From: Thiothrix sp. UBA5583
GTDB lineage: Bacteria; Pseudomonadota; Gammaproteobacteria; Thiotrichales; Thiotrichaceae
Reading direction: 5' to 3'
Assembly (NCBI GenBank): GCA_002425225.1
Contig: DILV01000018.1
Coordinates: forward strand, 67,819 to 131,818
DNA: 64,000 bases
Below are positions 24,276 to 57,236 of this stretch, one piece after another (the first letter of the stretch is position 1; the number at the start of each line of letters is the position of its first letter). Position numbers and translations under genes: made by a program. The notes under the pieces are model-generated. The model searched no databases. It had not been told where the DNA came from and saw only the letters and a list, made by a program, of their open reading frames with translations.

Positions 24276-24474
24276 GAGTTATGCTCCAAATCACGGCTGC
24301 ACTGCTTGATTTGCAACCGGGGTATCAATCTGAAAGTGGGGGTAATGATAGCGCGTATGGCCCCGCCGGGCGTAAGAATTTATGCCGCCCAGCCGGGCAG
24401 TCGCAGGAAGGGAAAGAATAGAATGTAGCGATTGGCTTTCATGTCACAAACGCTACAACAAAGCGGGTAGAACT

Positions 24475-54391: not shown

Positions 54392-55066
54392 ATGTTCAAA
54401 CCAAAAATGGTATTGATCGACGTGGACGGGACGCTGGTTGACAGCGTTCCCGACCTGACGTTTTGCGTCGATGCAATGATGCAGCAACTGGATATGCCGG
54501 TGCGTGGTGAAGCGGCGGTGCGCCAGTGGGTCGGCAATGGCGTGCAACGGCTGGTAGAACGCGCCCTGACCAACGATCTGGATGGAATGCCGGATGCCGC
54601 ACTGTTTGCACGCGCCATGCCGGTTTTCATGGACTTGTACGCAGAAAACACGTCTAAACGCAGTCGTCTGTATGACGGTGTGCTGGAGGGGCTGGATTTC
54701 CTGCAAGGTTGCAAGGGGCTGAAAATCGGCTGCGTCACCAACAAGGCTGCGCAATTCACCCACCCATTGCTGAAGGATCTAGGCATTTTCGACCGTTTCG
54801 AGATCATCATCAGCGGCGATACCCTGCCGGAAAAGAAACCGCATCCCCTGCCATTGCTGCACGCTGCCGAGGCATTGTGCGTAAAGCCGGAAGATGCAGT
54901 GATGATCGGTGACTCAAAGTCCGACGTAAAAGCGGCGCGGGCTGCCGGTTTCCAGATCATCTGCATGACCTACGGCTATAACCACGGCGAAGATATTCGT
55001 AACTATCACCCCGATGCTGTGATAGACTCGATGGCTGAATTCAGCAACCTGATTAGCTGCAACTGA
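54392..55066 (+). CDS. gph: Phosphoglycolate phosphatase
   Basis: HAD-family phosphatase removing phosphate from 2-phosphoglycolate, a product of DNA repair and of Rubisco oxygenation. The 224-residue protein has the HAD motif I DVDGTLVDSVPDL with both Asp, a helical cap, motif II VTNK, motif III Lys in KKPHPLPLL and motif IV MIGDSKSDVKAARAAG. Its stop codon overlaps the start of the Trp leader peptide (TGATG-like overlap at 55064-55068), tying it to trpE. Confidence 0.95.
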   Translation: MFKPKMVLIDVDGTLVDSVPDLTFCVDAMMQQLDMPVRGEAAVRQWVGNGVQRLVERALTNDLDGMPDAALFARAMPVFMDLYAENTSKRSRLYDGVLEGLDFLQGCKGLKIGCVTNKAAQFTHPLLKDLGIFDRFEIIISGDTLPEKKPHPLPLLHAAEALCVKPEDAVMIGDSKSDVKAARAAGFQIICMTYGYNHGEDIRNYHPDAVIDSMAEFSNLISCN

Positions 55067-55110
55067 TGAAATACATTCCGAATAAAACGTGGCGATGGCG
55101 TTCCCGCTAA
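55066..55110 (+). CDS. trpL: Predicted Trp leader peptide of trpE
   Basis: A 14-codon frame beginning inside the gph stop and encoding MKYIPNKTWRWRSR. It has two Trp codons (55090-55092 and 55096-55098) in three codons, which is rare by chance. It ends 45 bases before trpE. Codons 4 to 8 form one arm of the helix that masks the trpE SD. There is no SD of its own; reinitiation after gph is likely. Seen: the frame and its position. Inferred: its role in sensing charged tRNA-Trp. Confidence 0.65.
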   Translation: MKYIPNKTWRWRSR

Positions 55111-55149
55111 CCCCAGCAGGAAGTGTTTCGTTGACCGTTTTATTTGGAA
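55076..55149 (+). promoter_or_regulatory. Long-range helix masking the trpE SD
   Basis: TTCCGAATAAAACG (55076-55089) pairs with CGTTTTATTTGGAA (55136-55149): 14 pairs, one a G-U. The right arm contains the trpE SD region (GGAAG). A ribosome stalled at the leader Trp codons would cover the left arm and free the SD. No U-tract follows, so this fits translational rather than transcriptional control. Confidence 0.6.
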
Positions 55150-55155
55150 GCCCTC

Positions 55156-56637
55156 ATGAATCAGGATACCTTTGATACTTATATTGCCCAAGGCTACAAC
55201 CGTGTCCCCGTCCGCCGCACCACTCTGGCAGACCTCGACACCCCGTTAAGCGCCTATCTCAAACTGGCTGATGCGCCCTATTCCTACCTGTTCGAGTCTG
55301 TACAGGGCGGGGAGAAATGGGGGCGTTATTCCATGCTCGGCCTGCCCGCCAAAACGTTCATCAAGGTGTTTGGTTTGCGGGTGGAATTGCACCGCGCCCA
55401 TCAACCGGTTGAAAGTTTTGACGTAGTTGACCCATTGGCGTGGATTACGTCATTCCAGCAACAATACAACGTGCCGGACATTGAAGGTTTGCCACGTTTC
55501 AACGGCGGTCTGGTCGGCTATTTCGGCTACGAAACCATCCGTTACATTGAGAAAAAACTCAGCACGGGGCGTGACAAGCCCGACCCGATCGGCACGCCTG
55601 ACATCCTGCTGATGGTGTCAGATGAGGTGGTGGTATTCGACAACCTGCGCGGCGAACTGCATTTGATCGTGCTGGCAGAAGCCGGTGGTTTCCAGCAAGC
55701 GCAGCAACGGCTGGATGCGCTGGAACGCCAGTTGCAGGAAGCTCGCCGCCTCTACCAACCTGCCCCTAAAGCCCGGCAGGTTGAGGAAAGCGATTTCGTT
55801 TCCGGCTTTACCGAGCAGGGCTTCAAGGATGCGGTGGTCGCTGCCAAGGAATACATCAAGGCCGGTGACATCATGCAGGTAGTACTTTCGCAACGCATGA
55901 GCATCCCGTTTGAAGCCCCACCGCTGGACTTGTACCGCGCCTTGCGCCGCCTCAACCCGTCGCCGTACATGTATTTCCTCAATCTGGGCGATTTCCACAT
56001 CGTCGGCTCCTCACCGGAAATCCTGGTGCGTCTGGAAGACGACGTGATCACTGTGCGCCCGATTGCCGGAACCCGCAAGCGCGGCGACACCGAACAACGC
56101 GATCAGGAACTGGAAACCGAACTGCTCAACGACCCCAAGGAAATAGCCGAACACCTGATGCTGATCGACCTTGGGCGCAACGACACCGGGCGCGTCAGCG
56201 AAATCGGCTCCGTCAAGCTGACCGATAAAATGATCGTGGAACGCTATTCGCACGTCATGCACATCGTTTCCAACGTCACCGGCAAACTGCTGCCGGGGCT
56301 GGATGCGATGGACGTATTACGCGCCACCTTTCCCGCCGGAACCGTCAGCGGCGCACCCAAAATCCGTGCGATGGAAATCATCGACGAATTCGAGCCGGTC
56401 AAGCGTGGCGTCTACTCCGGTGCGGTCGGCTATCTGGCCTGGAACGGCAATATGGATACTGCCATTGCCATCCGTACCGCCGTGATCAAGGATACTGTGC
56501 TGCACATCCAGGCCGGTGCAGGTGTGGTGTACGACTCCATCCCCGATTTGGAATGGAAGGAAACCATGAACAAAGGGCGTGCGGTGTTCCGCGCCGCCAG
56601 TGCTGCATTATCCGGCCTCAACGGCAAACACAAATAA
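55156..56637 (+). CDS. trpE: Anthranilate synthase component I
   Basis: Makes anthranilate from chorismate, the first step of tryptophan synthesis, with TrpG. The ATG at 55156 gives 493 residues (a TTG four codons earlier is less likely). Feedback site: [21 protein letters not shown]-type N-terminal motif. Catalytic domain: [56 protein letters not shown] and [11 protein letters not shown]. trpG follows 14 bases later. A leader peptide and SD-masking helix lie just upstream. Confidence 0.97.
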
Positions 56638-56651
56638 GCAGGAGGTGTAAG

Positions 56652-57236
56652 ATGCGTGTCTTAATGGTTGATAACTATGACTCTTTTACTTACAACCTTG
56701 TTCAGTATCTGGGTGAGTTGGGTGCAGACGTTCAGGTTGTACGTAACGACGAAATCCCGGTGGAAGCGATTGACGATATTGCGCCGGACAAGATCGTGCT
56801 GTCCCCCGGCCCTTGTACGCCGACCGAAGCGGGTATTTCCATCCCCACCCTGCTGCGCTTTGCCGGAAAAATCCCGATTCTGGGCGTATGCCTTGGGCAT
56901 CAATCCATCGGGCAGGCGTTTGGCGGCAGGATTATCCGCGCCAAGGAAATCATGCACGGCAAAACCTCCATGATCCATCACAAAGGCGTGGGCGTATTCA
57001 GCAACTTGCCCAGCCCGCTGGAAGCTACCCGCTACCATTCGCTGGTGATTGAGCAGGCAACCATCCCCGACTGTCTGGAAATTACCGCGTGGACGAAAAC
57101 GGCAGACGGCAAGCTGGATGAAATCATGGGCGTGCGGCATAAAACCCTGCCGGTGGAAGGGGTGCAGTTCCACCCGGAATCCATCCTGACGCAGTATGGG
57201 CATGAGATGCTGAGGAATTTTCTGGATGGAAAATAA
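56652..57236 (+). CDS. trpG: Anthranilate synthase component II (glutamine amidotransferase)
   Basis: Supplies ammonia from glutamine to TrpE; may also serve PabB. The ATG at 56652, after AGGAGG, gives 194 residues; the frame extending upstream overlaps trpE and is spurious. Class I amidotransferase: [23 protein letters not shown], the nucleophile Cys in [11 protein letters not shown] and the His-Glu pair in VQFHPESI. trpD and trpC do not follow; an RDD-family gene overlaps its end. Confidence 0.96.

Follow-up and report, generated by a model that had tools for sequence, protein, structure and literature searches.

Predicted tryptophan-sensing translational attenuation of trpE through a short leader ORF in Thiothrix and other gammaproteobacteria

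Upstream of trpE in Thiothrix sp. UBA5583, we found what is probably a tryptophan-sensing, ribosome-mediated translational attenuator of the cat type, a prediction made by computation on a window of 64,000 nucleotides (contig DILV01000018.1, positions 67,819 to 131,818). Its parts are a short leader open reading frame (ORF) carrying two Trp codons and a helix, P1, in which leader codons would pair with the Shine-Dalgarno sequence (SD) of trpE. The comparative evidence is strong that this predicted helix over the trpE SD is conserved in relatives and, judging by the upstream regions compared, the arrangement is not peculiar to this genome and extends to many gammaproteobacteria. We infer the promoter, the translation of the leader, the stalling, the release of the SD and the sign of the response.

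The leader consists of 14 codons and a stop (ATG AAA TAC ATT CCG AAT AAA ACG TGG CGA TGG CGT TCC CGC TAA), with the product read from the sequence being MKYIPNKTWRWRSR, and its Trp codons are the 9th and the 11th (55090-55092 and 55096-55098). The last base of the gph stop codon TGA (55064-55066) is the A of the leader ATG. The remaining features of the locus are given in Table 1. A PabB-like paralogue of trpE (42%) is present as a second copy elsewhere in the same genome. A search with Rfam over the window gave a single match, a tRNA located elsewhere, and none at the leader.

Table 1. Features of the gph-trpE locus, in positions of the window
Feature	Position	Strand	Basis or remark
gph (phosphoglycolate phosphatase)	54392..55066	+	ORF; NCBIfam NF009695 over curated cut-off; final codons hold the presumed promoter; stop overlaps leader ATG
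Presumed extended -10 element TGATAGACT of the leader-trpE transcript	55020..55028	+	TGNTARACT in 16/16 genus members
Predicted leader ORF, MKYIPNKTWRWRSR then stop	55066..55110	+	Sequence; Arg/Trp leader in 98/208 trpE upstream regions
P1 left arm (leader codons 4-8)	55076..55089	+	Pairing, fold, covariation
TGG CGA TGG, Trp codons 9 and 11 with CGA between	55090..55098	+	Sequence; CGA before Trp in 72/84 Arg cases
P2, imperfect hairpin nested in P1, holding the Trp codons	55091..55132	+	Minimum-energy fold; weak cross-species support, z -4.0
P1 right arm, over the trpE SD	55136..55149	+	Pairing, fold, covariation
trpE SD, GGAAG	55146..55150	+	Inferred from sequence
trpE (anthranilate synthase component I)	55156..56637	+	NCBIfam TIGR00564 over curated cut-off
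trpG/pabA-type amidotransferase, downstream of trpE	56652..57236	+	NCBIfam subfamily TIGR00566 over curated cut-off

P1 comprises 14 continuous pairs, one of them G-U, with 46 bases between the arms, and the GGAA ahead of the trpE ATG falls within its right arm. An earlier note on this stretch had already described a 14-codon Trp-Arg-Trp frame overlapping the gph stop, a 14-bp helix between its codons 4-8 and the trpE SD, and the lack of a visible transcription terminator, and all three descriptions were borne out. The helix is part of the minimum-energy fold, with a z of -2.94 for the longer stretch (2 of 200 shuffles as good), and the leader folded by itself reaches -31.7 kcal/mol, a z of -4.20 that no shuffle out of 200 equalled. 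The leader/SD duplex of -16.1 kcal/mol was matched by 59 of 10,000 dinucleotide shuffles, and a stronger duplex was found somewhere in the upstream DNA of at least 8 of the 69 mechanically called ORFs of the window, many of which are surely not genes. Judged from this sequence by itself, the helix stands out only modestly, which is not decisive. Since a single sequence does not settle the question of chance, 210 trpE upstream regions were gathered, and it is the relatives that settle it.

The collection was made up of 30 regions from the genome itself and its relatives, 80 from named records (out of 591 matches) and 100 from the family and the class (about 26 class-level matches lie outside these 100); the 208 regions of at least 120 nt were retained (L033 and L097 were dropped). 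As leaders we counted ORFs of up to 40 codons, with a Trp adjoining an Arg or another Trp, that ended before trpE. Such an Arg/Trp leader (score of 3 or more) was found in 98 of the 208 loci, compared to 1.3% of shuffles; in 91 the first Trp of the cluster lay 50-125 nt from trpE, and 73 non-redundant loci remained once near-copies were removed. Within the genus the leader is present in 10 of 16 genomes, including our own, and absent in 6; relatives thus keep the Trp codons, one of the points that the earlier note proposed to check. Of the 53 loci of the whole family, 32 meet the leader criteria; Trp leaders of a different make-up, such as MNLFKHYNWLWI in L023, occur in several of the remaining 21. 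This other type of leader (e.g., NWLWI and stop) was seen in L023, L027, L028, L121, L122, L124, L125, and L127, in most cases with a small hairpin such as CGTCTTTTGAAAAAAAGACG directly after it.

The pairing of leader and SD was assessed between the 50 bases that lead up to the first Trp in the C-terminal cluster and the last 32 bases before trpE, comparing each locus with partners swapped among the 73. Own duplexes had a mean of -19.5 kcal/mol versus -11.7 for swapped ones (z -19.7, 0 of 20,000), and confining the swaps to regions of similar G+C left a z of -14.8 (0 of 20,000). When the left region was shuffled within each locus, 43 of the 73 loci reached p 0.05 and 23 reached p 0.01. Of the 110 trpE loci in which no leader was called, 21 were at p ≤0.05, but this control is not a clean negative because some leaders were missed by the criteria (e.g., L023, L027, and L059). 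The signal is located in the leader windows from -40 to -16 and from -25 to -1 before the Trp against the 20 bases before trpE (z -14.0 and -11.6, respectively), while the 14 other pairs of windows gave z values from -0.5 to -6.6, the two largest of them neighboring the main ones.

Covariation points in the same direction. In an alignment of 16 relatives over P1, 85.7% of cells pair and two-sided changes are found in 9 of the 14 pairs, between exactly the two arms where the earlier note had proposed to look for them; the two-sided cells numbered 17, compared to 4.4 in shuffles (0 of 500). With the partner strand slid along, pairing fell to 33-63%; a slide of -1 also gave 9 two-sided pairs, but with 13 cells instead of 17 and a score of 0.197 versus 0.334. 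Restricting the comparison to the 13 closest rows leaves weak covariation, with 3 pairs, 5 cells versus 1.3 in shuffles, and pair types not above shuffles, and some genus members have mismatches in the helix. Of the two versions of the alignment, A1 includes L020, L115, and L116, and A2 is without them. In L155 (computed) and L169 (by eye), an arm complementary to the SD was observed around or upstream of the start codon of the leader, so that the start of the leader itself would lie in paired RNA.

In the mechanism that we propose, codons 4-8 of the leader would pair with the SD in the free mRNA and trpE would be left untranslated. When charged tRNA-Trp is scarce, a ribosome would pause with Trp codon 9 or 11 in its A site, and its footprint would cover the left arm, blocking P1 and leaving the SD of trpE open. 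With plentiful Trp the ribosome would reach the stop codon, its rear edge past the left arm, and P1 would form again, lowering the translation of trpE. We modeled this with a ribosome assumed to occupy positions -18 to +12 around its A site. In the window, the left arm would be fully covered at codon 9, covered to 86% at codon 11, and free at the stop, and the unpaired probability of positions -16 to -6 of trpE would go from 0.09 in the free mRNA to 0.48 with a ribosome at the first Trp and back to 0.09 at the stop. In this model the geometry of the window is what a translational attenuator needs, with the sensor codons suitably placed, and the proposal of the earlier note that a stalled ribosome over the left arm exposes the SD gains support as a prediction. 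The means over the 73 loci were 0.24 free, 0.37 at the first Trp, and 0.28 at the stop, and the footprint opened the SD by more than 0.2 in only 24 of the 73. A strong duplex was found in 63 loci, and in just 12 of them would a ribosome at the first Trp cover 80% or more of the left arm (the median distance was 14 nt). In most of the distant relatives the arm and the Trp codons are further apart, and the geometry of the switch is less certain there. Ribosomes queued on these short leader ORFs could cover the arm in such relatives.

The same note had also called the element an erm-style switch; the translational part of this stands, and the erm part does not. The ermC type of attenuator requires a competing hairpin, and in the fold we found no alternative anti-sequester hairpin that would compete with P1, P2 being nested inside it. 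The switch is classed as cat type instead because one sequestering helix was found and no alternative one was identified. Some relatives also show, by eye, another ORF that would begin at the ATG within CGATGG; it was discarded because its frame closes early in several of them.

A further regularity of these leaders concerns the codon that precedes Trp. In the 73 leaders, 84 Arg codons immediately precede a Trp, and 72 of them are CGA; for those between two Trp codons the figure is 33 of 35, the case of the window being 55093-55095. After a Trp and not before another one, CGA accounts for 9 of 51 Arg codons, and elsewhere in the leaders for 6 of 75; it is also rare in the trpE ORFs of the same loci (6.7% of 1178). 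CGA is decoded via an inosine wobble pair. In the his leader of Salmonella it was among the slow Arg codons, taking longer to translate than CGU and CGC (PMC4046918). Considering this slow decoding and the wobble pair, a ribosome with CGA in the P site may wait longer for Trp-tRNA, and the CGA-UGG pair may prime the stall.

Control by a repressor alone, the alternative considered in the earlier note, finds little in the genomes searched: TrpR (PF01371) was found in none of the 36 genomes of the strain, genus, and family and in 3 of 57 overall, and TRAP (PF02081) was not found in our genome, the one searched for it, although other, unknown repressors are possible. The E. coli trp attenuator is the textbook case of transcription attenuation, and it would be natural to read the Trp codons of our leader, so similar to those of trpL, as controlling an intrinsic terminator before trpE. 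We consider this improbable for the window, where a scan that recovered the E. coli attenuator as a positive control found no terminator-like site between 54800 and 55300, and where the conserved helix ends at the SD of trpE and not at a T run. The Rfam family Trp_leader (presumably RF00513) had no match at its gathering score in the window or in 20 loci. Terminator-like sites do occur in 14 of the 73 leader-bearing relatives, compared to 5.1% of shuffles, and hence transcription attenuation may exist in some of them. There is an equally small chance that the output is transcriptional by way of Rho, with the stalling or the masking of the SD mainly altering Rho access; from general knowledge, an untranslated trpE would be open to Rho in a manner set by P1, and we found nothing more specific in its favor, while the position of the SD under the right arm in relatives argues for translation as the first step.

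The overlap of the gph stop with the leader ATG allows another reading, in which there is no sensing of Trp and any ribosome crossing the leader opens P1, whatever its codons. The location of gph is in agreement with it, since 7 of the 10 genus members with a leader have the end of gph immediately ahead of it (an arrangement seen in none of the 6 that lack a leader); however, the other 3 lack gph at this position and the Trp codons are conserved far above shuffles, which makes such plain coupling as unlikely as the two transcriptional readings. Even less probable, in our opinion, is that CGATGG is an RNA motif bound by a protein or a ligand, with an incidental ORF. The hexamer is present within the last 160 bases of 119 of the 210 upstream regions, and the bases beyond it are uneven in 66 aligned loci (G at +4 in 89%, C at +8 in 71%, T at +9 in 72%), running past the stop codon in some of them. 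Part of this pattern is made up by NGC codons followed by stops, no Rfam family matched, and relatives without CGA before Trp (e.g., L023, L027, L122, and L125) keep their Trp codons in an ORF started by ATG and also keep the SD helix, either by eye or computed (L122). The translational attenuator thus remains the reading that we favor.

Within the genus, the pattern TGNTARACT, picked after viewing the sequences, lies 133-150 nt before trpE in all 10 leader-bearing members and 40-49 nt before it in all 6 leader-less ones (L008, L009, L010, L013, L014, and L015), which keep the element TGNTAGACT. It is also present where gph is not adjacent, and in the window it falls within gph codons; a sigma-70 promoter scan found no promoter in this region of the window. 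This looks like a single promoter from which the leader module has been removed. A trpE tree was built from 16 rows (9 leader-bearing, 6 leader-less and 1 outgroup; L016 was omitted). On this tree the presence of the leader has to change three times, with well-supported branches forcing two of these changes, and at least two independent changes took place. L012, with a leader, and L014, without it, are sisters about 2% apart by branch length.

Among the other biosynthetic genes of the genome, we inspected the upstream regions of trpD, hisG, ilvB, leuA, and pheA. No Trp leader was found upstream of trpD, and hisG and pheA have coding sequence directly upstream. A leader-like ORF was seen only at leuA (MKANRYILFFPFLRLPGWAA and stop, 24380-24442, strand -), where it is followed by a GC-rich inverted repeat.

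The principle of this switch is already known. In cat-86/catA and ermC, the SD is masked by a helix that is disrupted when a ribosome stalls on a short leader ORF, and in cat there is a single such helix. Our candidate resembles them in that a stalled ribosome would free the SD of the next gene, with a single helix as in cat; unlike these antibiotic sensors, it would sense Trp-tRNA and serve an amino acid gene, and its left arm is formed by the leader codons just upstream of the Trp codons. The nearest functional parallel is provided by the polycysteine leaderless short ORFs of mycobacteria, in which, as Canestrari et al. reportedly described in 2020, ribosomes stalled on Cys codons free the ribosome-binding site of metabolic genes. 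There too stalling on the same amino acid would open the site, although that system concerns cysteine, mycobacteria, and leaderless mRNA, and ours Trp, trpE, and gammaproteobacteria. With trpL of E. coli our element shares a short leader with Trp codons before trpE and the ribosome as sensor; the output of trpL is an intrinsic terminator, whereas here none was seen and the helix covers the SD. Attenuation of trpE and trpGDC is said, by the title of a paper, to occur in Pseudomonas putida. Another likeness is the LEU element before leuA of actinobacteria, in which leader codons also pair with the SD of an amino acid gene (PMC1262725). There the run of Leu codons itself pairs and a pseudoknot is predicted, in contrast to our arm of codons before the Trp codons, and its authors argued against attenuation and in favor of a protein.

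Our searches of the open-licence literature turned up no proteobacterium for which translational attenuation of trpE is described. A terminator survey states that its method does not detect translational attenuators and that the work of Merino and Yanofsky did (PMC2965389), and therefore an earlier list might include trpE. Use of the principle for trpE is apparently undescribed in the literature searched, which does not prove its absence in print.

Taken as a whole, the data allow a broader and more tentative proposal, which we regard as possible but somewhat short of an even chance: a widespread and undescribed family of gammaproteobacterial Trp sensors acting on the translation of trpE, in which leader codons pair with the SD, the CGA-UGG pair primes the stall, and the module was excised from between promoter and trpE on more than one occasion. 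If the switch operates in many gammaproteobacteria, surveys based on terminators would miss it. Repeated excision of the module, if true, would provide natural knock-outs among close species, and the loss of the leader in close relatives together with the CGA-TGG pair would make stalling at hungry codons directly testable.
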